DNA from: a virus
DNA: 34,730 nucleotides
Strand: one strand, 5' to 3'
Virus record (IMG/VR): IMGVR_UViG_3300033153_010880
Coordinates: 1-34,730 of that record
Shown here: one piece after another, positions 1 through 34,730 of the stretch
Position numbering within the stretch: position 1 is the first letter of the stretch
How the letters are laid out: each line of letters starts with the position of its first letter
Made by a program: the position numbers and the translations under genes
The notes under the pieces: model-generated
Told to the model about the DNA's origin: nothing
What the model saw: the letters and a program-made list of their open reading frames with translations, nothing else
Database searches by the model: none

Positions 1-114
1 CTCGTCAAAAGGTGGTACATCGACGACCTCAGTTACCTTAGGTTTTCTATTACACCCACAAAGCACCTCTCTTATAAAGGCCTTTGGTAACTCACTTAGC
101 TTACCCAAACGACC
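1..114. repeat. 114-bp direct repeat of the window ends (copy 1)
   Basis: Bases 1-114 are identical to 34617-34730. The repeat lies inside a coding region, and joining the ends restores one long open frame. This is the expected look of a circular or circularly permuted phage genome assembled with an overlap. Short exact terminal repeats of the T7 kind cannot be excluded but would be unusual inside a gene. The unit length is 34,616 bp. Confidence 0.95.
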
Positions 115-546
115 CTCATTTACAATCGAATACCCTTTTGATCCCGCTATCACCACCAGCCTATTACCGGTGAGTAGGTCTATCCCTTCTCTACCAAATG
201 CGTTATTTAAAGACTCACCTGTGTCATTTTTAAAAAAGTAATGAAGCCCCCCGTTTCGAGACCTTTCACAATACAGTTCTGAAAAATCTAGATCATAGTC
301 TTCACACCACAGCTTAAACAGACCTAGGCCGTCCTTGCCGTTTTTGACGTCGATATCAATACAGATAAGGTCTTCGAGTATTAAGGCGATCCCGTTGTAA
401 CCCTTCCCATAGATGTGGTGATAACCCTCAATGTCGTTAATGATTGGTGGTTTTGTAGATCGCCAATTTACAGGGAAGGTCAAGTCTTCATTAACAATAA
501 CAGGTACATACTTGCGTGGCCCGAAGAGTTCAATGGAATTTTTCAC
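1..546 (-). CDS. Primase-polymerase/helicase, N-terminal part (continues at 34730)
   Basis: This is the first 182 codons of a gene that the window boundary cuts. It runs off position 1 and continues at 34616 on the same strand, giving 686 residues in all. The start is GTG at 546-544, with AAGG about 8 bases upstream; the ATG just upstream is in another frame and soon hits a stop. The part seen here is the archaeo-eukaryotic primase (prim-pol) fold: CIDIDVKNG at residues 62-70 supplies the two metal-binding aspartates (64 and 66), and SRNGGLHYFF at 96-105 has the conserved GGxH histidine. The family makes primers, and sometimes extends DNA, for phage and plasmid replication. The gene diverges from the early rightward operon at 633, so the two may share a control region. 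Confidence 0.9.
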   Translation of the reverse strand, partial: MKNSIELFGPRKYVPVIVNEDLTFPVNWRSTKPPIINDIEGYHHIYGKGYNGIALILEDLICIDIDVKNGKDGLGLFKLWCEDYDLDFSELYCERSRNGGLHYFFKNDTGESLNNAFGREGIDLLTGNRLVVIAGSKGYSIVNEGRLGKLSELPKAFIREVLCGCNRKPKVTEVVDVPPFDE

Positions 547-632: not shown

Positions 633-1361
633 GTGGAAATATTCAAAGGTCCTCAATTAGATAAACCCTACAAGGTGGTGCTTTATGGCTCACCAGGTGT
701 CGGTAAATCCACTATGGCAAACACTGCAGAGAGTCCGATATTTTTAGATATCGAAAACGGTCTAACTAGAATTGATTGCCACAAGACACCAATCATTAAG
801 TCTATCAGTGATTTGAAAAAATCCGTGAGTTTTTTAATGAAGTCTGAAGAGTACAAGACTGTGGTGCTAGATACTGCAGATGCATTAGACCTGATCATAT
901 CTAATGAGATATGTACCAAAGCAGATAAACAAAGCCTGGCTGATTTCGGGTATGGTGCGGGATATGAAATGCTAAATAAAACTTGGAATAGCATACTGAG
1001 CGGTTTAGACATGCTCTACGACAAGGGTATGAATATCATAATTACAGCACACCCAATCATTAGAACGTTTCAAGACCCCACTGGAGACGCATACGACAAG
1101 TACACACTAAAGATACACCAAAAGCCTGCAGGCTCGATCATATCTAGATTTGATGGTGTATTTTTTATGGAATATGAAAAGGTCTTAAAGACTACCACTG
1201 GTGATAAAAAAAGAGCTATTGCCACAGGTGAGAGGATTTTAAACACTAAAAACAAATTGGCTTTTGACGCTAAGAATAGGTTTAACCTTCCTGATAAAAT
1301 AGTTATTGGTAAGGATTTTGATTTAAGTATTTTTGAGAAAATGATTAGAGGAGAAAAGTAA
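633..1361 (+). CDS. Sak4-like RecA-fold ATPase (phage recombinase)
   Basis: This 242-residue AAA/RecA-type NTPase has a Walker A motif, GSPGVGKS, at residues 19-26 and a Walker B strand, VVLD, at 77-80. A later ITAHP stretch fits a sensor segment. Length and motif layout match the Sak4 group of phage single-strand annealing/recombinase ATPases, which pair with a phage SSB. The next gene is such an SSB-like protein, which supports the call. The likely role is recombination-dependent DNA replication and repair in the host cytoplasm. The GTG start at 633 follows GAGGTG at a short spacing. It is the first gene of the rightward early operon, and the next gene begins one base after its stop. Confidence 0.8.
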   Translation: MEIFKGPQLDKPYKVVLYGSPGVGKSTMANTAESPIFLDIENGLTRIDCHKTPIIKSISDLKKSVSFLMKSEEYKTVVLDTADALDLIISNEICTKADKQSLADFGYGAGYEMLNKTWNSILSGLDMLYDKGMNIIITAHPIIRTFQDPTGDAYDKYTLKIHQKPAGSIISRFDGVFFMEYEKVLKTTTGDKKRAIATGERILNTKNKLAFDAKNRFNLPDKIVIGKDFDLSIFEKMIRGEK

Positions 1362-1754
1362 ATGGTATTTTTTGATGGTGACGACGTAAAGGATGCGCTT
1401 GTACTAGAGCCAGGCCGATACACTGGAATTATTAGTGGTGCTGAAACTGGTATTCCAAACAAAAACAAAACTGGTGAGCTTACATGGGTAACCTTTGAAG
1501 TTGAAGGTGAAGAGCAAACAATTAAAAAAAGCTTTAACCTAGTACATGATAACAAAACTGCAGAAAATATTTCTAAGGTGGAGTTTAAAAAGGTTGTGGT
1601 ACTAGCAACTGGTGATGCAAAATTAGAGTCTTTAGAAGACCTAATTGGTAAACGTGTTGGACTTAACATCTCTGTGAAAGAGTGGGAAGGTCAAGAGCGT
1701 AATGAGGTTAAGGGATTTTTTGCACCGACTAAATCTGAAGACTTACCATTCTAG
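1362..1754 (+). CDS. Single-stranded DNA-binding-like protein with acidic C-terminal tip
   Basis: This 130-residue, beta-rich protein resembles the DUF669/OB-fold proteins found beside Sak4-type ATPases. Its last residues, SEDLPF, imitate the acidic tip of bacterial SSB (DDDIPF in E. coli), the peptide that docks replication and repair enzymes. It probably coats single-stranded DNA and recruits the upstream ATPase or host factors. The ATG directly follows the stop of the ATPase gene and has a GAGGAG site 10-15 bases upstream, so the two are translated together. The identification rests on the tip, size and neighbour rather than on a strong sequence motif. Confidence 0.7.
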   Translation: MVFFDGDDVKDALVLEPGRYTGIISGAETGIPNKNKTGELTWVTFEVEGEEQTIKKSFNLVHDNKTAENISKVEFKKVVVLATGDAKLESLEDLIGKRVGLNISVKEWEGQERNEVKGFFAPTKSEDLPF

Positions 1755-4125: not shown

Positions 4126-4351
4126 TAGTTTCGATCCTAAAAGCAGCTTCGTCGCTTATTATTGTTGGTGATTTACGCTCACCTATAATATTACCACGAG
4201 TCCCTTTGAGATCCAAATTTCTAACATCTAAGTTTAATGGTTTATATGCATATTCTTTAGGTTTAAGATTTCTAATTAAGTAGATAACTAAAACAATGGT
4301 GACTAGTGATATCACTATGTTAAAGGTGCTTAGAGCATTTAAAACATCCAT
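4100..4351 (-). CDS. Single-pass membrane protein (lysis candidate)
   Basis: This 83-residue protein has one membrane segment near the N-terminus (about 9-27, TFNIVISLVTIVLVIYLI). A polar, basic tail follows with no other motif. It overlaps both neighbours: the GNAT gene stop and the next coiled-coil gene. A pinholin-like or spanin-partner role is possible. No family is recognised. Confidence 0.55.
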   Translation of the reverse strand: MDVLNALSTFNIVISLVTIVLVIYLIRNLKPKEYAYKPLNLDVRNLDLKGTRGNIIGERKSPTIISDEAAFRIETNERTASNR

Positions 4352-4857
4352 TCTTTTGCCTTTACTGAATACAGGTGAGCGTCTAAATAATCGCCATCTT
4401 TAAAATAAAAATCCCGTCTATCCCCTTCAAATTTCATACCTATCTTTTCAAAAGTACCCGAAGCAGGATTACCAGCAAACGTCTCACCCCATATGAGGTT
4501 TAAGTTTAGATCTCTAAACCCATGGGTAAATAAAGTTTTAAGAGCTTTACAGGAAAACCCCTGGAGCTGGTATTTTCTAATAATGTACAAAGAAAACTCG
4601 GCCCTTCGGTTTATCATGTCTATGTCCGTAAGGCCGCACACCCCTACTATCTCTTCTGAAGAGTTATGAACTTCAAACATAGAAATCTTAGGGTCGTCGT
4701 TTTGTTTGATAAACCATTCGTGCTGATCTAGTTCAGAGATTAAACCGGTTTGTCTACACCACCTTCTAATCTCTGGGTCGTTTCTTTGGTTGCGCATGAT
4801 CTCAAGATTTTCCTGGGTGATGGGTTCTAACACCACACCATGTTTAAAATCAATCAT
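4339..4857 (-). CDS. GNAT N-acetyltransferase, PseH-like
   Basis: This 172-residue GCN5-type acetyltransferase begins with the LEPITQENLEIMRNQRN segment typical of sugar-amine acetyltransferases of the PseH/RimJ branch. It also has the EIVGVCGLTDID strand (about 69-80), AEFSLYI (86-92) and an acetyl-CoA loop at YQLQGFSCKAL (96-106), followed by NPASGTFEKIGM (130-141). PseH transfers acetyl from acetyl-CoA to the 4-amino group of a UDP-6-deoxy amino sugar in pseudaminic acid synthesis. Five other sugar genes in this genome make a sugar substrate more likely than a protein one. It is the last sugar gene in the leftward cassette and overlaps a 63-aa gene upstream by 8 bases. Confidence 0.75.
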   Translation of the reverse strand: MIDFKHGVVLEPITQENLEIMRNQRNDPEIRRWCRQTGLISELDQHEWFIKQNDDPKISMFEVHNSSEEIVGVCGLTDIDMINRRAEFSLYIIRKYQLQGFSCKALKTLFTHGFRDLNLNLIWGETFAGNPASGTFEKIGMKFEGDRRDFYFKDGDYLDAHLYSVKAKEWMF

Positions 4858-5041
4858 TTTCTAACGTCTCCAAAGTCCACTCTATAGCGTCGATAGGTGT
4901 TATCTTTTCCTTATCAAACAATTGGTGAAGCGTAGATAGGTAGGCTTCAGTTTTACCTTTTAGCTTACTTTCTAGTTCGTTTATCTCAACTTGCATTCCT
5001 TTAAGAGTAATTATTAAATCTCTAATATCATCCTTGTCCAT
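4850..5041 (-). CDS. Small helical protein inside the sugar cassette
   Basis: This 63-residue, acidic, all-helical protein (IRDLIITLKGMQVEINELES, then a second helix) has no recognised family. It overlaps the aminotransferase end by 14 bases and the acetyltransferase start by 8 bases, so it is translated as part of the cassette. A possible role is a small partner of a neighbouring enzyme; nothing more can be said. Confidence 0.55.
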   Translation of the reverse strand: MDKDDIRDLIITLKGMQVEINELESKLKGKTEAYLSTLHQLFDKEKITPIDAIEWTLETLEND

Positions 5042-6224
5042 TCTCTCTCACTTTCATAGCAAAGGGTGAAGAGGGCATATCGCCTTCAAGTTGTACGTTA
5101 CCTTGTTTAATTTTAAATAGGATTTGTTCTATATAAGCCAATACCTCTTCATTGTGAGATATATGAGCAAAATTATAAAACCAGCTCTTGCAAAAGAGGA
5201 TACGTGCTTTTGCACACTCTTGAAAAAATAAAGCTCTTGTAAGCTCATCGCCTTCAAATACCCCCCTAGTTGGATAGCCGACGATTTTAATTTTCTCTGG
5301 TAAAAACTTGTTAAACTCATCTATGAAATGTTGGCCTTCAGCCCAAAGGTAATTGATATTAAAATCTGATTTTCTCTGCATTAAATCCACAACGGCCTGG
5401 CAAGCTACAAGAGATAAAACCTCCCCTGCATAGGTGGAGCTAATAAAATAGTTACCGTCCATGATTTCTTTTTTACCACCAACTGCAGCTAGTGGTAAGC
5501 CGTTTGCCATAGCCTTACCAATAATAATTAAATCTGGATAGATATTAAAATTTGAAGCGCACGAATAGTCTTTATATCTAAAGCCGGTAATTACCTCATC
5601 AAAGATTAATATAACTCCAGTCTCATCGCACCTTTCTTTTAAGGCTTTTAACCATTCAATGCGCTCTCTAGAGTTATCCACAATTACAGGCTCCACAATT
5701 ACTGCAGCCACCTTTTTTGTAACATCTTTTAAACTCTTTAAAGTTTTTACAAAGTCTCTTTTGGGAACACCACTAGCAGGTGGTGTTAAACCAACAAAGT
5801 CGTCATGCCACCCATGATAGCCTTCACTAAGCACCACATCTCTACCAGTTGCAGACCTTGCTATTCTTATAGCTGCAGTACAGGCCTCACTACCACTTTT
5901 TAAAAACTTAAACTTATCCACAAATGTAAAAATCTGCTTTAGCTTTTCAGCGCACTCCACCTCATGGTGAGTAGGAAAACTATGAGAAAAACCTCCATAA
6001 AGATTTTTAATAATAGCCGCGTTTACAGTTTCGTTACCGTACCCCACAAGGTTCGCACCAAGGCCGCATATGTAATCTAGATATTTATTGTTATCTAAAT
6101 CATAGAGGTGACTACCAACACCACCTCTAACCTGCTTAGGGTAAATTCCATTTACATGACTTCTAGGATGTTTTGAATTTGTCAGTACATCCTGGGCAAT
6201 ACAATTTTGAGCTCTAATCCACAT
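5028..6224 (-). CDS. Class III PLP aminotransferase (GSA-aminomutase-like)
   Basis: This protein of about 398 residues has the class III aminotransferase/glutamate-1-semialdehyde aminomutase fold. It shows GSEA (about 111-114), YHGWHD (136-141), FDEVITGFR (208-216, with the PLP-ring aspartate) and the PLP lysine in IIGKAMANG (Lys 237). Beside a sugar dehydratase, oxidoreductase and cytidylyltransferase it most likely puts an amino group on a keto-sugar rather than taking part in haem synthesis. It may replace PseC, which normally belongs to a different aminotransferase class. ATG 6224 is preferred, a few bases after the upstream stop; an in-frame TTG at 6248 is possible but has no good site. 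Confidence 0.85.
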   Translation of the reverse strand: MWIRAQNCIAQDVLTNSKHPRSHVNGIYPKQVRGGVGSHLYDLDNNKYLDYICGLGANLVGYGNETVNAAIIKNLYGGFSHSFPTHHEVECAEKLKQIFTFVDKFKFLKSGSEACTAAIRIARSATGRDVVLSEGYHGWHDDFVGLTPPASGVPKRDFVKTLKSLKDVTKKVAAVIVEPVIVDNSRERIEWLKALKERCDETGVILIFDEVITGFRYKDYSCASNFNIYPDLIIIGKAMANGLPLAAVGGKKEIMDGNYFISSTYAGEVLSLVACQAVVDLMQRKSDFNINYLWAEGQHFIDEFNKFLPEKIKIVGYPTRGVFEGDELTRALFFQECAKARILFCKSWFYNFAHISHNEEVLAYIEQILFKIKQGNVQLEGDMPSSPFAMKVRENGQG

Positions 6225-6228
6225 AATA

Positions 6229-6930
6229 TTAATACCTAAATAGTCCAAAGTTTTGTTGTTTAATTTTCTCTGTCTTTCTCTGTACTGACTCGTAGTTATT
6301 TCTAACCCTGATCAGTTCCTCTTCAGTGTCCACACTAATTTTAATAGTACTGAAATCATGGTGTCCTATAATATGAGCTATCCTTGCCCAACGTGGTGGT
6401 TTTTTCCTTAGCATAGTGGTGACGTGTTCTTTGTCCTCGGCCAATGTTACTGTCTCCAAAAGATAGTCCATAGCCTCACGACTCATGATCTCACAATCAA
6501 AACCGTCAGGCATAGTTCTGGTCTCTGGACAAACGTTATGTACATAGTCAAGTCGATGTTTAACACACGTCATTATATGCTTGGTAATAAGAGGGCTTGG
6601 AATTAAAGGGCAATCTGCAGTAATACGGACCAAATATTTAGGATCGTATTTCTCTAAAGCTTTTCCGTATCTACTTAGTACGTCGTCCTCTGATCCTTCG
6701 ACTATGTTTTTATGATACTTTTTAAAAGACTCGTCGCCAAAAGGTATTAACAAACAAACTGAAACATGTATTCCATGGTTCACGCTTTTTCTATTAATAT
6801 GATTGGCTGCACTTTCGCACGTATCAATAACATGCTCGATTATTTTCTTATCACCAACTTCCATAAAGCATTTACCTGGAAGTCTGGCATTACCACTACG
6901 TGCTTGTATTCCTATCAGGACATTTATCAT
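6229..6930 (-). CDS. Sugar cytidylyltransferase (SpsF/PseF/NeuA-like)
   Basis: This 233-residue nucleotidyltransferase has a nucleotide-binding loop, QARSGNARLPGK, at 9-20. EDDVL (81-85) and RITADCPLI (102-110), with the metal-binding aspartate, are typical of SpsF/CMP-acylneuraminate synthetases. It should activate a 3-deoxy sugar acid with CTP to give a CMP-sugar, the last step before transfer. The NeuB-type synthase at 26.1-27.1 kb would supply such an acid. It overlaps the oxidoreductase gene upstream by 35 bases and precedes the aminotransferase. SpsF-type enzymes are a sister group to NeuA, so the exact sugar cannot be read from the sequence. Confidence 0.85.
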   Translation of the reverse strand: MINVLIGIQARSGNARLPGKCFMEVGDKKIIEHVIDTCESAANHINRKSVNHGIHVSVCLLIPFGDESFKKYHKNIVEGSEDDVLSRYGKALEKYDPKYLVRITADCPLIPSPLITKHIMTCVKHRLDYVHNVCPETRTMPDGFDCEIMSREAMDYLLETVTLAEDKEHVTTMLRKKPPRWARIAHIIGHHDFSTIKISVDTEEELIRVRNNYESVQRKTEKIKQQNFGLFRY

Positions 6931-7531
6931 TTAAATATTCCACTACTTTGCTATGTGCGTGAACAATGTAATTTAAATCAGGTTTGGGATTTTCCAGCCA
7001 GTCTTCAATGTTTTTGACATATGCCATATCCATATCAGCAATAGAGACAGGAGCCCCATTAATTTGACAGGACCATAGAGGGCTATCGTTTTTTAATTTC
7101 ACACTAGATTTAGCTAAAGCTAAAATACTAATGCAATCCCATGCTAGAGAGTCCTTGCCTGTTTTGAAAAAATTGTATGAAGTATGACCTTCATAATCTC
7201 TTGGGTAATTTAAATATTTATATTGATTAATCATTTGAAGGTTTAAACTAGGAAGGTCCCTTAGTCCCCAAAGATCCTTAATTCCATGCTCAATTATAGA
7301 AAGAGGCTTTTCACAAAGTATGGGCACGTTACCATTTTGGTAATATAAATTTCTAATGATCTTTAAATGAGAGTGAGTTGACGTCGCTACAATAAAACCG
7401 TCGCAATCTTTAGTGGGGGGGTTAATTCCTAAGTCAATATCAACGTGTTCAACTTTAAGGTAGTCAAGTATCTTACAATACCTTTGGCCCATGTTACCTA
7501 ATGCTCCCACCACACCTATCTTTTTTAACAT
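6896..7531 (-). CDS. Short Gfo/Idh/MocA-type oxidoreductase
   Basis: This 211-residue protein has a Rossmann NAD(P)-binding N-terminus (IGVVGALGNMG at 5-15), the FIVATSTHSH segment (46-55) and the hallmark CEKPLS (73-78) of Gfo/Idh/MocA sugar dehydrogenases. Usual members have about 330-400 residues, so the C-terminal substrate domain is reduced. The frame is open and the gene overlaps both neighbours, so this looks like a compact form rather than a recent break. The likely role is oxidising a sugar hydroxyl to a ketone, which the nearby class III aminotransferase could aminate. It starts at 7531, overlapping the stop of the dehydratase gene. Confidence 0.75.
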   Translation of the reverse strand: MLKKIGVVGALGNMGQRYCKILDYLKVEHVDIDLGINPPTKDCDGFIVATSTHSHLKIIRNLYYQNGNVPILCEKPLSIIEHGIKDLWGLRDLPSLNLQMINQYKYLNYPRDYEGHTSYNFFKTGKDSLAWDCISILALAKSSVKLKNDSPLWSCQINGAPVSIADMDMAYVKNIEDWLENPKPDLNYIVHAHSKVVEYLNDKCPDRNTST

Positions 7532-8367
7532 GGTAGCACCTCGTCAATCATAGCGTTTATTTGTTTGTCTGAAAGTTTTGGAGCGTTGTCACTACGAAGA
7601 CAATAACTATGATTTGAAATCAAACACTCATGTATTTTCTCACCAGGTCTAATACCTATCTCTTCAGTCTCATGTTTAATATCTAGCCTTTTAGCAATAA
7701 GCTCTATTAGGTTTGCTATGCTAGTCGCCTTCATTGGCGGGACATGTAAACCAAATGGGGCTCTTTTGATTTTCTTTGAAACAAAATCAATAGCGTCGTC
7801 CAGGGTAATAAAAAACCTAGTCATGTCTCCATGAGTTATGTAAGCCTTTTTCTCTTTTTTAAGTGTCTTAACAAATTGGTGTATCACGCTACCTCTAGAG
7901 CCAAACACGTTACCCCAACGAAAAACATAGTACCCATTAAGTTTGTCTTTTAACCAAATGGACTCACCAAGGCCCTTACTCATGCCGTAAGCATTTATAG
8001 GGAGCACGGCTTTATCAGTTGAGAAATAAATACATCTACCAACCTTAGTGTTAAGGCATGAATGATAAACGTTTTGAGTTCCTAAAACATTTGTCTTTAT
8101 AAACTCGTCTACAAACCTCTCGCCTTTATCCACATGCTTTAGAGCTGCAGTATGAAAAACTATATCGTAATGTTTTTCTCTAAAGACTTCAGAGACTCTT
8201 TCTTTATCTCTGATATCACCAAGCAAGTAATTAAAGTCTGGGAAATCTTTTTGCATTTCGTATTGCTTTAATTCGTCTCTAGAGAAAATAGTGATATTAT
8301 TTTCTTTATAAAACTCAGCAAGCTTTTTCCCTAAAGAGCCTGTACCACCAGTAATTAAGATATTCAT
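7525..8367 (-). CDS. UDP-GlcNAc 4,6-dehydratase, PseB/FlaA1-like
   Basis: This 280-residue short-chain dehydrogenase/reductase has the NAD(P) loop TGGTGSLG (6-13), FSRDELKQYEMQ (28-39) and GDIRDKERV (50-58). The catalytic residues Asp118, Lys119 and Tyr127 lie in STDKA and YGMSK, with the same spacing as the FlaA1/PseB triad. RWGNVFGSRGSVI, MTRFFITLDDA and EIGIRPGEKIHECLI are also characteristic of PseB. The enzyme converts UDP-GlcNAc to a 4-keto-6-deoxy sugar, the first step of pseudaminic acid synthesis. It begins with a GAGGTG site and overlaps the membrane-protein gene upstream (ATGA). It is slightly shorter than bacterial homologues but has all key residues. Confidence 0.88.
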   Translation of the reverse strand: MNILITGGTGSLGKKLAEFYKENNITIFSRDELKQYEMQKDFPDFNYLLGDIRDKERVSEVFREKHYDIVFHTAALKHVDKGERFVDEFIKTNVLGTQNVYHSCLNTKVGRCIYFSTDKAVLPINAYGMSKGLGESIWLKDKLNGYYVFRWGNVFGSRGSVIHQFVKTLKKEKKAYITHGDMTRFFITLDDAIDFVSKKIKRAPFGLHVPPMKATSIANLIELIAKRLDIKHETEEIGIRPGEKIHECLISNHSYCLRSDNAPKLSDKQINAMIDEVLPC

Positions 8368-24064: not shown

Positions 24065-24438
24065 TATTTACTTCCCTGTACTTCAATGCTGTTACTAAAA
24101 TAATCGTCGTAGGTCTTTTGCTTTTTGTCTTCACGCTGTTTTTCGAAACTAGTGTGCATTTTGTTGGGGTCTTCGTTACCTATTTCTACTAAATTTCGTT
24201 CTTTAGCTATTGTAGCACGATGTTTCGAGTTTTTCACCACTGTACCTAATGCCGGACAATAAGCCGACTCTTCGACTTTCTCACCGTAAAACGTACCACC
24301 AACAATCATGCGGTTACTTTTAGTGAGCTCAGTGTTGCATTTAGGACACACCTCTAGATCGTCAATATTTTCCATTGGCTTGTAAACATCGAACTCATGC
24401 TCACAGTCGCATCTATATGGATAACACCTTGCTACCAA
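24064..24438 (-). CDS. FmdB-type zinc-ribbon protein
   Basis: This 124-residue protein has a zinc ribbon like FmdB. Cysteines in RCDCEHEF (10 and 12) and CPKC (31, 34) bracket VYKPMENIDDLEV, followed by NRMIVGGTFYG. The C-terminal half is basic and helical. It lies between the terminase and portal genes, overlapping both by a few bases. It may help DNA packaging or regulate transcription; the family has no fixed phage role. Confidence 0.7.
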   Translation of the reverse strand: MVARCYPYRCDCEHEFDVYKPMENIDDLEVCPKCNTELTKSNRMIVGGTFYGEKVEESAYCPALGTVVKNSKHRATIAKERNLVEIGNEDPNKMHTSFEKQREDKKQKTYDDYFSNSIEVQGSK

Positions 24439-25748
24439 CTCTCTACCCCCTTAGGTCTTTCTTTTAGGATATCTGTTAAGTAATCCTGGGTTCTAACCTC
24501 TTGTCGAGCACTTTTAATTATTGACGATCTAATGTGAGTAGATTTTATAACATTAATATCAAAGGTTGCAATAGTAATATATCTATTCACGTCCATTGTG
24601 TGATCGTGCTGTTTAACTGGAAGCTTGTCTTTTTGATCTGCATTAGTATTAACTTCCTTATATTCAGGATAGTGATACGTCTCCATTTCATTAATAGTGT
24701 AACGGCCACATGCACTAAATATTTTAAATCGTCTAGTTTGTATCAGTTCATAGAATTTATCTAAACCAAGCCTTATCTCGTTATTAGCACCAATACAAGT
24801 TAGATGGTTTTTATTAAACTCCATTATGTACTCAGGCCTGGAGGGGTCGGCATAAAAAAGCTCTATTGGAAATATCTTTCTAGCTCTAAGCGCCACCTCT
24901 AACATGCTAGCTATCGTATGTCCGGACTTGTAGTGCTCAAAAACTTGGTAATGCCTACCTTCAGGGGTAATAGCTCTAACAAGTAAAACAAAAGGATCAT
25001 TGTACCCCCAATCGATACCACCAAAGAACCTAGTACCTGCAGGGAGCTCTTTAGGTAAGCAGATGTTTTCGTCCTCATCGAAGCAATCATAAACAAGACC
25101 TTCCATTTTATCGAATTGACCACCGTACTGCATATTAAAACGCCTGGGGTCCATGGTACGCTTTTTTCGTTCGTATTCTTTCTCTGGAAAATACGGGTTA
25201 TCTTTAGAGGTCTTTTGGACAAGCAGGCACTCGTCCATGATAGCCTTGTTACCTTTTCGATACGGCCTAATGTAATCCTTATAGAGCCAATTAAGAGAGT
25301 ACGGACTAGTAACAATTCTAATTGGAGCCTCTAGAAATGAGGCCCTTCCTTGGATTACTTCCCAAAAGTACAGGGAGTACAGTCCGGCCTCATCACACAA
25401 GATACCTTTAACGTCGGTGATACCTACTGCAGAGTCGGGATTAACTCCAGTTCTAAACCAGATTGTTGGACCCTGGTACATGATAAAGCAGTTGTTTTTC
25501 TTATCGAAATGACCCAGGCCTTTCATTGCAGCTAAAAATGGTGGAAGTGTGGATTGTGTCAAGATAGGAAAAGACGGGCTTGTAATGATAAAGTTGTTTT
25601 TAGACTCTGGGTGTTTATGGATCATCATTTTGAGCCACATTACACCACTCATGGTCTTGCCCCACTGAATTCCAGTTGCAGCAATCACAATGGGTTTATC
25701 TGAAAATATTACATCCTCTTGAGCCTGGGTGTGCGGTTTAAATAGCAT
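24432..25748 (-). CDS. terL: Terminase large subunit
   Basis: This 438-residue packaging motor has an N-terminal ATPase with ATGIQWGKT (Walker A, 24-32) and GILCDEAG (Walker B, 115-122, with catalytic Glu120). The C-terminal RNase H-like nuclease has GGIDWG (243-248, metal-binding Asp246) and FYADPSRPEY later. It cuts concatemeric DNA and drives it into the procapsid. It starts directly after the 118-aa gene and overlaps the zinc-ribbon gene by 7 bases. Confidence 0.92.
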   Translation of the reverse strand: MLFKPHTQAQEDVIFSDKPIVIAATGIQWGKTMSGVMWLKMMIHKHPESKNNFIITSPSFPILTQSTLPPFLAAMKGLGHFDKKNNCFIMYQGPTIWFRTGVNPDSAVGITDVKGILCDEAGLYSLYFWEVIQGRASFLEAPIRIVTSPYSLNWLYKDYIRPYRKGNKAIMDECLLVQKTSKDNPYFPEKEYERKKRTMDPRRFNMQYGGQFDKMEGLVYDCFDEDENICLPKELPAGTRFFGGIDWGYNDPFVLLVRAITPEGRHYQVFEHYKSGHTIASMLEVALRARKIFPIELFYADPSRPEYIMEFNKNHLTCIGANNEIRLGLDKFYELIQTRRFKIFSACGRYTINEMETYHYPEYKEVNTNADQKDKLPVKQHDHTMDVNRYITIATFDINVIKSTHIRSSIIKSARQEVRTQDYLTDILKERPKGVESW

Positions 25749-28426: not shown

Positions 28427-28858
28427 TTACTCCATATCGATTGTGTTAGTATCTACCATTTTAGAACCAAGCTCGACCTGTTCGCCACTTCTGCGTTGTA
28501 TGATAGTCGGGGCCGGTACTGTTATTTCTTTAACATCCTTAACTTTACCAATTAATCGGTCTAAGATAAAGTCCAGCCTTCGGTAATCCCCCTCTTTAAT
28601 ACCCTTAGATATGATCATACATATCCAATGATCAATAGTTTGCCTAGATTTATCAGCTAAAATACCATCGATCTCGTCCATATTCTTTTGGAGCATTTCG
28701 GTGAGTTTGACTTCGACAAATTCTTTGGAGAGTTTTCTAGCTAAGGTGAGTTCTTTAGGTCCGCTAATACCAAGAGGATTTCTAACCTCTCCCTTTTTAG
28801 GAGCTACCAGGTTTTTATAACCTTTAGCACTTCCTTTTAATTCTTTATCATTACTCAT
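28427..28858 (-). CDS. Small terminase subunit candidate
   Basis: This 143-residue protein has an N-terminal KKGEVRNPLGISGPKEL segment like the GNP/NPxG region of terminase-linked DUF5681 proteins, a helical centre, then GDYRRLDFILDRLIGKVKD (about 92-110), which is common in small terminases. The basic, helical make-up and position as first gene of the late operon fit DNA recognition for packaging. It is separated from the large subunit by three genes, which is unusual. The start at 28858 lies about 30 bases after the predicted transcription start. Confidence 0.65.
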   Translation of the reverse strand: MSNDKELKGSAKGYKNLVAPKKGEVRNPLGISGPKELTLARKLSKEFVEVKLTEMLQKNMDEIDGILADKSRQTIDHWICMIISKGIKEGDYRRLDFILDRLIGKVKDVKEITVPAPTIIQRRSGEQVELGSKMVDTNTIDME

Positions 28859-29104: not shown

Positions 29105-29590
29105 ATGGAAAACAATTCACTATTAGTAGCGACCGTTAACTTTTTGCTTCCGATCACATTGGCTGTTTTACTCACAGCCTGTGGACAAGACGAGGGGAGC
29201 TCAGCTGAAGAGGTTATCGAAGAGCCTACAGTTGAGACCTATGCCAGAGTACACACTCACTTAGATCTAGGTCTTTTATGCACCGACACTATTTCACTTT
29301 ACAAGGATCAGTACGTTATGATTAACAGCTGCAAAGATTACAACGACGACGGTATTTCAAAGGAAGAGGTCGAGAGAGGTAGCTTTATAAAAACAGATAG
29401 TTCAATTATTTTCACACCAACCGAGTCAACGTGTACCGCTAAGGGTTTAGAGTCATATAAAAAGGCTGCATATTTCACCGAAGAGAGTCTTGTAATAGCT
29501 GAAGTTATCTATGAATATGCAGGTTCTAGCTATCTACTAGTTGGGAATACTATCCAAGGTTGTTGGGATGGTAACGACTTCACTGAGTAG
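29105..29590 (+). CDS. Predicted secreted lipoprotein
   Basis: This 161-residue protein has a hydrophobic N-terminal segment (about 7-25) ending in a lipobox LLTAC (Cys26), then an acidic spacer and a Cys-containing beta-rich domain. It should be attached to a membrane after lipid modification. Phage lipoproteins often block superinfecting phage or serve as outer spanins; neither can be decided here. It starts with AAGGGG 6 bases before ATG and is transcribed rightward, opposite to the late operon. Confidence 0.75.
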   Translation: MENNSLLVATVNFLLPITLAVLLTACGQDEGSSAEEVIEEPTVETYARVHTHLDLGLLCTDTISLYKDQYVMINSCKDYNDDGISKEEVERGSFIKTDSSIIFTPTESTCTAKGLESYKKAAYFTEESLVIAEVIYEYAGSSYLLVGNTIQGCWDGNDFTE

Positions 29591-29602
29591 TTATCATCTG
29601 TT

Positions 29603-29622
29603 AGTCCAGGGACGGACTCTTT
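29603..29622 (+). terminator. Weak hairpin after the lipoprotein gene
   Basis: AGTCC and GGACT pair over a 6-base loop, followed by CTTT. The stem is only 5 bp and overlaps the next promoter, so termination would be partial at best. Confidence 0.3.
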
Positions 29623-29647
29623 ACACCCCCTCCAAATATGCTACACT
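29620..29647 (+). promoter_or_regulatory. Promoter for the miniprotein-hydrolase pair
   Basis: -35 TTTACA (29620-29625; 5 of 6), 16-base spacer, -10 TACACT (29642-29647) with an extended TGC just before it. It lies 36 bases before the ATG of the zinc-knuckle gene. This suggests separate control of these two genes. Confidence 0.5.
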
Positions 29648-29682
29648 GAATACATCACCACAACATTACAAGGAAAAAGACT

Positions 29683-29835
29683 ATGAAAGTTAAGACTCTG
29701 TGTGTGTGTGGCACTAAGTTTAAACACGAAGAGCACGACACTAATATAAAGTGTCCAGTTTGCCATAACCAATATTTTGAAGAGATTGAGGAAGAGATCC
29801 ATGAGGATCTTTGTGACATTTTTGGAGGTGAGTAA
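29683..29835 (+). CDS. 50-residue zinc-knuckle miniprotein
   Basis: This gene starts at ATG 29683, with AAGGA about 9 bases upstream, and its stop overlaps the next start (TAATG). The product has CVC (7-9) and CPVC (24-27), a likely zinc site, then an acidic helix (FEEIEEEIHEDL). It resembles small rubredoxin-like zinc-ribbon proteins. Role unknown; it is translationally coupled to the hydrolase lipoprotein. Confidence 0.7.
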   Translation: MKVKTLCVCGTKFKHEEHDTNIKCPVCHNQYFEEIEEEIHEDLCDIFGGE

Positions 29836-30779
29836 TGAGATTTTTGTTTAGTGCGTTTATTGTTTTTTGCATGGTGGCTTGTAGTTCGTGCGGTACGACT
29901 ACCAGACCAGAGTGCCCGAAGTGCCCCGACCCAATACCGAGTCCTGAACCTGATCCGGCTCCACCACCACAGCCTGATCCAATACCAACACCGGACCCTA
30001 TCCCCGAACCTGATCCTATTCCGGATCCTGAACCTGATCCTGAACCACCACAAGACCCAGACGAAAAGCCGTTTTGTGTAAACCCAAACCTAGACCCAGT
30101 AAAGCCAGGGCCGTACTCTGTTAGAGAAAAAACTGAGGGCTCGGTAAAGCTTTTCATTCCACAGGGACTACCAAGAGATTGCATTGCACCGATAGCTCAT
30201 TTCTCAAATGGAACTGGAGCCAGGTGTGTTTTTTACAGAGGCCTACTAAAACACTGGGCAAGTCATGGGTACATAGCCTCATGTTTTGAGTCCTCTTCCA
30301 CCGGTAGTGGTGAAGCATGCTACAAAGGCCTAGAGGCTGCAGGGCGTCAAAACAACGCTAGCCTAGCTTACATACTGTCAAGTGGGCATAGTCAAGGTGG
30401 AAGTGCTAGTAATCATTGCGCTTTTAAGCTAGAACAGCGTGGCTTCAAAGGTAAGGGCGTGGTAGTCGGTGTCCAGAGTGCCTGGGGCATGGGATGGACT
30501 TCATACCGAAGAGATTTACCTAAGATCAAAATGCCAAACTTTGAGATCTCAGGCTCTAAAGACACGGTAATCTCACCACCAAGAGTAGGCGCTGGTTACA
30601 AGCTTATTACATCTGAAAAGTATTGGTATTCAGCTGAAGGCGCTAGTCATATGAACCCTCAAAACTGGGCTCAAGTAGGCGGCCTGGTGTTTGCAAACTG
30701 GAAGTTATTAGACTCAGAGTATGCAAAAGAATATTTTCTAGCCTTACCAAATTCCAGGGAATGGTCTAACATGGACTAG
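29835..30779 (+). CDS. Lipoprotein alpha/beta hydrolase with proline-rich stalk
   Basis: This 314-residue protein has a signal peptide ending in lipobox MVAC (Cys16). A stalk of repeated Pro-Asp/Glu pairs follows (about 31-78, such as PIPEPDPIPDPEPDPEP), then a compact alpha/beta hydrolase domain. The nucleophile elbow is GHSQG (Ser186), with Asp243 in GSKDT and His272 in GASHM as the likely triad. The domain resembles cutinase/PET-hydrolase-like esterases. The stalk would hold the enzyme away from the membrane. A role in removing esters (for example O-acetyl groups) from host surface sugars, to block superinfection or ease release, is a hypothesis. The start overlaps the previous stop. Confidence 0.8.
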   Translation: MRFLFSAFIVFCMVACSSCGTTTRPECPKCPDPIPSPEPDPAPPPQPDPIPTPDPIPEPDPIPDPEPDPEPPQDPDEKPFCVNPNLDPVKPGPYSVREKTEGSVKLFIPQGLPRDCIAPIAHFSNGTGARCVFYRGLLKHWASHGYIASCFESSSTGSGEACYKGLEAAGRQNNASLAYILSSGHSQGGSASNHCAFKLEQRGFKGKGVVVGVQSAWGMGWTSYRRDLPKIKMPNFEISGSKDTVISPPRVGAGYKLITSEKYWYSAEGASHMNPQNWAQVGGLVFANWKLLDSEYAKEYFLALPNSREWSNMD

Positions 30780-32791: not shown

Positions 32792-32864
32792 ACCACCACC
32801 TCCCACATAGTTTATCTCTAAACCTTCTCATAGCGTGTGATTAATTTTTATGCAATACGAAATA

Positions 32865-33084
32865 AACCTGTCGAACCTGTACGAACCTGTACAGGACCTG
32901 TACATGCTTTTGTCAGGTTAAGTTATTAATAATAAAAAAAAAAAATATAACCTGTACATAAATGGGGGGGGGTACGTCCCTAAATAGGGGTATAGCCCCC
33001 TTGTCTTTTTGTACAGGATTGATGTTTCGTGAATTATCTCGGGGAGTAAACCTGTAAAATGCTTGTACAGGTTGTGTACAGGTT
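32865..33084. repeat. AACCTGTAC repeat array with A-rich tract (candidate replication origin)
   Basis: Nine copies or near-copies of AACCTGTAC occur here. Forward copies start at 32865 (partial), 32874, 32884, 32895, 32949 and 33049 (partial). Reverse copies lie at 33011 (shorter), 33065 and 33076. The third forms a full palindrome CCTGTACAGG at 32886-32895. The first four are spaced 9-11 bases, about one helix turn. An AT-rich stretch with a run of 12 A lies at 32918-32950. This is the makeup of iteron origins: initiator sites next to an easily melted region. The gap 32792-33101 holds no gene. An operator array for a repressor is the main alternative. Confidence 0.6.
32964..33001. other. G-run and alternative hairpins inside the repeat array
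   Basis: A run of nine G (32964-32972) is followed by CCCTA-AA-TAGGG (perfect small hairpin) and AGGGG-tatag-CCCCT, then a T-rich stretch. The G-run could pair with CCCCC at 32996-33000 instead, so several structures exclude one another. The last hairpin also resembles a weak rightward terminator. It could be a replication-start or terminator structure. Confidence 0.4.
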
Positions 33085-33101
33085 TGCCAGCTTGTACGTT
33101 T

Positions 33102-34730
33102 TCAATCTGGCTGGCGCTTTATAGTTTTTTTGTATTTTCCCAATACTATAAACCGCTTATCTTCTAAGATAGCCGAACGAAGAGACCTTAGCAAGTACTC
33201 GTCTTCCTTTTTCCTAAAGAATTTTCTAGTGAACTCGGCAAAAGGAACCGCACCTGTGGATAACTCAGAGGCCGCCTTGATAACCGCTTTTTCTACGGGG
33301 TCGTCTTCATTGGTAAAAAGCTCGATACTTCGAAGCGCCATGTACTCGGCCAAATCTGCACCAAAGTTTAAATCCTCTTTTAAGATTTGTATTTTCTTAG
33401 ATGGCCTATTAAGAGCCGCCACTCTGGCTGCAAACTCTGTGGCCTTGTCCATAGCAAAATGAAAGAATTGTTTATTGTCTCCAAAGTTTTCTTTATGAGC
33501 TTTCATTTTTTCCCAAAGACTCCATGAGTATTCAATCATTTCGTCAGAGATAGTTACATTGGCGTAGACACCTTCACCACTAAGAGCGCTCATATGAGTT
33601 TTGAAAAATCTAACGTCGTCGTCTCTAAGTATCTTGTAGGTCGATGATTTAAACCGAACCTTGTAGAGCTCTTTATCCACCTCTTTACGTTTCAGATAAA
33701 CGAACGAAGGCCGACGGATAAACCCGCCACCATAAAAAGCATTAGACCGATACGAGTCGAAAGTTTTAAACGTGTCATTAAGTACCATATTGATAAACGG
33801 CTCTTTAATCTTTTCGATGGTAGCACCTGTCACTGCAGTACGGCCTACGATCTCACCACCACGTCCTGTGGAGTATGCAGTAAGGAATGTTTCCTTAGCT
33901 GAGAAAGTGCCCTCAGAGTTGAGAAATTGAGCCCCCTCGTCCAGAAAAAGGTTTTGAGTCCTTTTCTGTGAGAGTTCTTTAAGGAGCGCCTTGTTGCTAT
34001 CTGGGAACTTGTCAGTTAATCCCGTAAGCCTATCGTCGATACGACGCACCTCTTTATTGAACTGGTGCATATTGAAACTTTTGCCAGAGATAGGGTGGCC
34101 TAGTTGCTGCATTAGAAAGTTTAGGTTAGTCCCGCCAAAGTAAAGCTTGCCTCCAAACAAGTAAGCAGGGAGTAGCTGGGTGTAAAACATAGTGGCGGCC
34201 TCTGGCTCCATGTTTGCCCTTTTGATAGCAAGCTCTACAATCTCACCGGCCCTACCTGGAGCTAGGGGCATTGGACCTTTACGAATATCCTTTTGGGTGC
34301 TCACTGGTTTATTTAAAAATCCAAAGTCTACCACCGGTTCAACGTATCCAAAGTCTGTGGCCTCATGACGTACCGACCCCCAATGAAAAGAATAGTTAGA
34401 ACTCTTCAGGCCCGACCTATTTAACATCCACTGCTTGTTGGTGATCTTAGGCTTTTGCCCTGTTCTGACTTCCCACTTTGTTTGGTTTAAAAATTTATCT
34501 GCTAACTTCAGGGCGTCGTCTAAAGTAAAGCTATCATTTAATAACAGCATGTATTTCGACCAGGGTGTTTCATCGTCCCAGTAGTCTTCAGGAAAATAAG
34601 ACAACAACTTGACACACTCGTCAAAAGGTGGTACATCGACGACCTCAGTTACCTTAGGTTTTCTATTACACCCACAAAGCACCTCTCTTATAAAGGCCTT
34701 TGGTAACTCACTTAGCTTACCCAAACGACC
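33102..34730 (-). CDS. Primase-polymerase/helicase, C-terminal part (begins at 546 across the join)
   Basis: This is the remainder of the 686-residue replication protein, ending in TGA at 33104-33102; the last 114 bases duplicate 1-114. After the prim-pol domain comes a PriCT-like helical stretch (about residues 175-230), then an ATPase region resembling DUF3987 primase-helicases. GHPISGKS at about 355-362 fits Walker A (GxxxxGKS), and LFLDEG at about 405-410 fits Walker B. The protein therefore probably primes and unwinds DNA as a single polypeptide. I see no separate DNA polymerase or helicase gene, so replication probably recruits the host polymerase. The TTG at 34724 is an internal codon, not a start. 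The AACCTGTAC repeat array begins 18 bases beyond the stop, a sensible place for an origin used by this protein. Confidence 0.85.
   Translation of the reverse strand, partial: GRLGKLSELPKAFIREVLCGCNRKPKVTEVVDVPPFDECVKLLSYFPEDYWDDETPWSKYMLLLNDSFTLDDALKLADKFLNQTKWEVRTGQKPKITNKQWMLNRSGLKSSNYSFHWGSVRHEATDFGYVEPVVDFGFLNKPVSTQKDIRKGPMPLAPGRAGEIVELAIKRANMEPEAATMFYTQLLPAYLFGGKLYFGGTNLNFLMQQLGHPISGKSFNMHQFNKEVRRIDDRLTGLTDKFPDSNKALLKELSQKRTQNLFLDEGAQFLNSEGTFSAKETFLTAYSTGRGGEIVGRTAVTGATIEKIKEPFINMVLNDTFKTFDSYRSNAFYGGGFIRRPSFVYLKRKEVDKELYKVRFKSSTYKILRDDDVRFFKTHMSALSGEGVYANVTISDEMIEYSWSLWEKMKAHKENFGDNKQFFHFAMDKATEFAARVAALNRPSKKIQILKEDLNFGADLAEYMALRSIELFTNEDDPVEKAVIKAASELSTGAVPFAEFTRKFFRKKEDEYLLRSLRSAILEDKRFIVLGKYKKTIKRQPD
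34617..34730. repeat. 114-bp direct repeat of the window ends (copy 2)
   Basis: This is an exact second copy of bases 1-114. It should be counted once in the biological genome. Confidence 0.95.

Follow-up and report, generated by a model that had tools for sequence, protein, structure and literature searches.

A Probable Replication Origin with Two-Way Iterons and a 200-bp Dyad 3' of a PrimPol Primase-Helicase Gene in a 34.6-kb Phage

The region at 32865-33084 of the phage record IMGVR_UViG_3300033153_010880 is probably a phage replication origin of the PICI/P4/pRN1 type, recognized by the adjacent primase-helicase. This reading rests on a repeat array and a dyad that are both far beyond chance, their position 3' of the primase-helicase gene, the recurrence of this layout in other phages with a primase of this class, and a concerted change between the phages Axy19 and nyashin_LB6. 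All coordinates refer to the window, which is the whole stretch of 34,730 nucleotides that was analyzed.

Repeat elements and dyad symmetry

The array is made of CCTGTAC-type elements in both orientations. Ten of these do not overlap, seven being exact and three degenerate. An additional exact core on the minus strand at 32889 overlaps the one at 32886, forming the palindrome CCTGTACAGG and bringing the exact cores to eight. On either strand, all the exact cores fall within 32876-33082. The 9-mer AACCTGTAC/GTACAGGTT is present in five exact copies in the array and in one copy elsewhere in the genome (9089). When the genome was simulated 300 times with a first-order Markov model, the highest count of any 7-mer was 5 per 250 bp; the array has eight exact cores in about 200 bp. 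The elements of the region are as follows.

32867 (CCTGTCG), 32876, 32886, 32897, 32951, and 33051 (CCTGTAA), plus strand: 7-bp cores
32911 (CCTGACA), 33011, 33065, and 33076, minus strand: 7-bp cores
32865-32904, plus strand: left iteron set, four AACCTGTAC-type elements including the palindrome
32911-32919, minus strand: degenerate inverted iteron AACCTGACA, mirror partner of 33049
32920-32948: A+T-rich tract with A12, proposed from its sequence as the melting site
32949-32958, plus strand: iteron AACCTGTACA, mirror partner of 33010
33010-33019, minus strand: iteron ATCCTGTACA
33049-33057, plus strand: iteron AACCTGTAA
33064-33084, minus strand: right iteron set, a pair of inverted AACCTGTAC elements at 11-bp spacing
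32884-33084: imperfect dyad of 201 bp centered on 32984, with four mirrored iteron pairs, proposed as the origin core

The original prediction was correct about the location of the cluster and its two orientations, but it counted nine elements where we count ten. It also described four elements spaced near one helical turn, and the intervals of the left four are indeed 9, 10, and 11 bp. The A-rich tract that it placed between the elements was found as well: the iteron sets at 32865-32904 and 33049-33084, together with the elements at 32949 and 33010, lie on either side of 32920-32948, the A-rich part of which is 32930-32948. The entire array is contained in the intergenic gap 32807-33101. As predicted, the region is free of coding sequence, with no open reading frame of at least 50 amino acids between 32806 and 33102. 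An origin of the lambda O type, in which the iterons are inside the initiator coding sequence, was ruled out since this array is intergenic. No cluster of DnaA boxes was found, and the single consensus match nearby (33255) is inside the primase gene.

The dyad was missed by the original prediction. About its center (i+j = 65968), 62 of 100 positions are complementary, while the genome averages 25.7 (sd 4.6) and no other center exceeds 44, making this 200-bp element the strongest dyad of the genome by far. Four iteron pairs fall exactly on the center, an arrangement equaled in 2 of 50,000 random placements by a test designed after the dyad had been seen. Positions of the dyad that lie outside the iterons are also complementary in 28 of 63 cases (p ~0.001). 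The strand folds into one nested hairpin.

A hairpin of this kind might work as RNA, by terminating or processing the primase transcript or as a structured noncoding RNA. The RNA fold of the dyad region is strong (z -6.7 over 246 nt), and terminator-like matches on the plus strand number four against a mean of 1.1. Those matches, however, are on the strand opposite the primase transcript, and the array region has no match in Rfam. A hairpin also does not require the helically phased direct repeats of the left set, and in other phages unrelated arrays occupy the same place without a full hairpin. We therefore consider an RNA function very improbable.

The primase-helicase gene and its neighbors

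A 114-bp direct repeat is present at both contig ends (1-114 is the same as 34617-34730). The map therefore closes, with a length of 34,616 bp, and contains the primase gene in full, which the original prediction had also overlooked. At about 34.6 kb, the record represents the complete phage map, either circular or circularly permuted. The primase-helicase gene is on the minus strand, running from 546 to 1 and then from 34616 to 33102 across the contig junction, and encodes about 687 amino acids. It and its divergent neighbors were assigned as follows.

1-546, minus strand: N-terminal Prim-Pol part of the primase gene (PF09250 above cut-off; PHROG DNA primases)
33102-34730, minus strand: C-terminal part of the PrimPol primase-helicase gene (terminal repeat, phrog_3022, hhalign)
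586-602: perfect CTAAGT-N5-ACTTAG palindrome within the divergent early promoter
633-1361, plus strand: Sak4-like single-stranded DNA annealing ATPase, first gene of a divergent replication/recombination operon (phrog_124, E 1e-48; PF13479)
1362-1754, plus strand: DUF669-type protein, probably SSB-like (weak PF05037; phrog_2300)

The full protein matches phrog_3022 (DNA primase) over residues 50-487. When compared by hhalign to 15 PrimPol-DUF3987 proteins, it is collinear over residues 49-616 (probability 97.5%, E 5.8e-12). DUF3987 itself gave no direct Pfam match in this protein, and a Walker A motif, GHPISGKS, was recognized by eye. Judged by these alignments, the protein has a Prim-Pol domain, a linker, and a DUF3987-like P-loop helicase in collinear order, as in PrimPol-DUF3987 primase-helicases. 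The last ~70 residues could be read by eye as three helices and a wing. AF2 models made without an alignment had a pLDDT of 35 for the whole primase and 67 for the tail, with no meaningful fold match; such single-sequence models are of too low a quality, and helical matches such as RbcX carry no meaning. The last iteron base (33084) is 17 bp from the primase stop (33102), with the array 3' of the gene. The earlier claim that the array adjoins a prim-pol/helicase gene on its downstream side was thus upheld.

Another possible explanation is that the elements are operators of a phage regulator, controlling the operon that runs leftward from 32806 toward the lysis genes. The array is upstream of the minus-strand genes at 32806-30873, the phage encodes an XRE-type HTH protein (2338-2685), which, or another HTH protein, could be that regulator, and one sigma-70-like promoter match is present on the minus strand (32958-32929). 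However, promoter-like matches in the array region are no more common than in shuffles (1 compared to a mean of 2.4), and the region, with its ten sites spread across 220 bp, its dyad, and its A12 tract, is more than a usual operator. The iteron elements are also absent from the divergent early promoter (546-633), which has the CTAAGT-N5-ACTTAG palindrome instead. That palindrome is likely the operator of a repressor and is unlike the iterons. Phages of this primase class have the layout in common but not the regulator. Overall, the operator explanation is unlikely.

Among the proteins scanned, which were part of the open reading frames, no phage DNA polymerase, no Rep_3- or RepA_N-type Rep initiator, and no partition or recombinase family was seen. 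GC and AT skew were uninformative about an origin in this genome, since gene orientation dominates both.

The layout in relatives and in other PrimPol-DUF3987 phages

The original prediction proposed searching for the repeat in relatives, and the outcome was mixed. No close homolog of this primase was found in IMG/VR, phage collections, plasmid collections, or GTDB genomes, and no close homolog of the array was found. A search with the capsid gene gave 19 relatives, with best segments 58-73% identical; the two longest are 34.5 and 36.7 kb and each has 123-bp terminal repeats. Neither these two nor the fragments contain a match to this primase. The capsid relatives carry another replication module, and the eight largest of them, which were read fully or nearly so, have no comparable intergenic array, although this absence is weak evidence since several relatives are fragments. 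Repeat clusters found in capsid relatives, ATGCTGC x10 in G001 and GCCAGA in G007, were rejected as repetitive coding or simple sequence. The latter relative has a simple GCCAGA-type hexamer array between genes (L023 7918-8180). A motif scan with one exact iteron pair returned only a chance match in coding sequence (L002). Two collections each gave more than 100 stretches with a triple-repeat pattern, and profile search found no PrimPol gene in those examined. As far as this can be tested, the array appears to travel with the replication module rather than follow the structural lineage.

Packaging, partition, and site-specific recombination sites can also contain arrays of repeats with inverted symmetry. 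Here, the small terminase-like gene (28430-28858) and the large terminase gene (24435-25748) are 4-8 kb from the array, no partition or recombinase family was found among the proteins scanned, and the array is missing from relatives by capsid and terminase while accompanying the primase class. A site of any of these three kinds is thus a poor candidate, with a very low probability.

Other iterons were found in phages of the primase class. For 21 PrimPol/DUF3987 phages and the window, the 300 bp that follow the primase stop on its 3' side were compared, each with 60 shuffles. The window has 9 copies of AACCTGTA in this region, above 60/60 shuffles. Three phages have strong arrays directly 3' of the primase, also above 60/60 shuffles: Halfdan (GTATAAGG x8), Axy19 (GTTTACGG-type x12), and Vibrio 1.117.O (TCCCCTTA x11). 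Their counts were equaled in 0/60 and 0/100 shuffles. In these three and in the window, the array is the richest or joint-richest window of its own locus. Weaker arrays in Eidolon (count reached in 2/60 shuffles) and Kimi (9/60) are suggestive. In most of the 21 phages, the sequence directly 3' of the primase has no significant array; RcTitan, BUCT627, pPA-3099, VC8, pYD21-A, VLCpiS13b, DLP_1, and PSTCR7 showed none that was convincing at this position. Where iterons are present, they occur in both orientations with an AT-rich tract alongside or between them, and their sequences are unrelated between phages sharing the layout. Several class members also share a gene order, with a Sak4/SSB-like operon divergent from the primase. 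Unrelated arrays at the same 3' place support the iteron-origin reading of the original prediction. Its statement that the region resembles plasmid origins more than common phage origins was not supported in this respect, since the comparison suggests that an array of this kind is not unusual among phages of this primase class.

Some Septimatrevirus-like phages (DoCa8, KL1, Ab26) have a repeat-bearing AT-rich gap further downstream of the primase. For KL1 and Ab26, the repeat counts of the gap were reached in 2/100 and 1/100 shuffles. All these gaps are leads only, since they were chosen after inspection. The AT-rich core of Halfdan recurs in DoCa8, a Xanthomonas phage (L314 3001-3076), where three small genes separate it from the primase upstream, as though the origin had been displaced by gene insertion.

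If a protein and its DNA sites change specificity, iterons and the primase C-terminal half are expected to diverge jointly, and such a case is seen in Axy19 and nyashin_LB6. The gaps of these phages (L066 5333-5679 and L313 3001-3332, respectively) can be aligned at 69% identity. All 12 of 12 iterons, at matching positions, have changed together from GTGTTTTCGG in Axy19 to GCGTTGTATG in nyashin_LB6, with the spacers between them largely retained. Between the two primases, identity is 96-100% over residues 1-300 but 62-86% in most blocks from residue 401 on, with low values near the C-terminus. These phages appear to be a natural pair in which initiator and iterons switched specificity jointly. 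The HTH protein upstream of the primase differs too (75% identity) and remains a candidate partner, so the binder of the iterons is not uniquely assigned.

Comparison with known origins and proposed mechanism

In the pri-rep-ori modules of PICIs and SaPIs, the origin is immediately 3' of the primase-helicase/initiator gene, and iteron sets specific in sequence to each element flank an AT-rich region (PMC6092414, PMC7581432). Helicases of SaPI and SCC elements bind iterons downstream of their own genes, and the isolated C-terminal domain of SCC Cch2 binds iterons (PMC7581432). Like EcCICFT073, SaPIbov1, and SaPI5, the window has its array immediately 3' of the primase-helicase gene, with iteron sets on either side of an AT-rich region. 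In contrast to those elements, it is a complete tailed phage that encodes its own capsid and terminase, its helicase is DUF3987-like, and its iterons form one exact 200-bp dyad. That the window is itself a PICI satellite was ruled out, since terminase, portal, major head protein, and more virion genes are present.

The pRN1 origin is a stem-loop 3' of a PrimPol-helicase gene (PMC4234260, PMC3869888). Like pRN1/BIP-1, with its PrimPol-SF3-wHTH gene, the window has a PrimPol-helicase fusion with the putative origin just 3', and its dyad gives the long stem-loop (z -5.6 as DNA). The pRN1 structure is without iterons and has a 21-nt stem and a 58-nt loop, whereas the stem in the window is built from iterons.

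The alpha protein of the satellite phage P4 has a Toprim primase, and P4 needs a second site, crr. A P4 alpha-type replicon was ruled out here, since the primase domain is a Prim-Pol (AEP, PF09250). The likeness to P4 is that one protein combines primase and helicase; in alpha, the same protein also binds the origin repeats (PMC4234260), as we propose for the window protein. Halfdan, Axy19/phiAxp-1, nyashin_LB6, Vibrio 1.117.O, Eidolon, and Kimi share with the window the primase class and an array with an AT-rich tract 3' of the gene. They differ in having other iteron sequences and no full 200-bp dyad, and the origin is unannotated in their records. For the term "plasmid-like" in the original prediction, "satellite-like" should be the better description: the array resembles PICI/SaPI, P4, and pRN1 hairpin origins more than those of classical RepA-type iteron plasmids.

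Under the origin reading, the primase-helicase would use its C-terminal half to bind both iteron sets, which face in opposite directions, and would probably do so in the form of two head-to-head oligomers. Opening would follow, either at the A-rich tract or through extrusion of a hairpin from the dyad. Two helicase rings could load from the mirror halves and move apart, with the PrimPol domain priming and the host replisome elongating. Sak4 and the DUF669-type protein may then support recombination-dependent replication.

We also put forward a broader proposal, with somewhat less than even confidence. PrimPol-DUF3987 phages may be a class of self-initiating replicons whose origin is an array of iterons in both orientations, located 3' of the primase gene. 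The iterons would evolve jointly with the C-terminal half of the primase, the two forming a single specificity cassette that can be swapped. The 200-bp iteron hairpin of the window would merge PICI-type and pRN1-type origins. The two-way layout, so far described as a unique trait of satellites (PICIs), appears from these comparisons to occur in several ordinary phages. A prior description elsewhere is possible, as the literature comparison covered open-access papers. For most virulent phages, to our knowledge, no origin has been mapped. If the proposal is true, those of the whole class could be found just 3' of the PrimPol-helicase gene, and it would bear on the source of satellite replicons and on competition between satellites and helper phages.

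Two other gene groups in the window were seen. Genes at 4339-8367, named by eye from their sequences, resemble acetyltransferase, aminotransferase, cytidylyltransferase, oxidoreductase, and nucleotide-sugar epimerase genes. This block is kept in capsid relatives and is perhaps a phage-borne nucleotide-sugar pathway. At 29105-30779, two plus-strand genes lie within minus-strand late genes. Their products are lipoprotein-like and proline-rich (the latter weakly chlorophyllase-like), and the two genes are possible morons.
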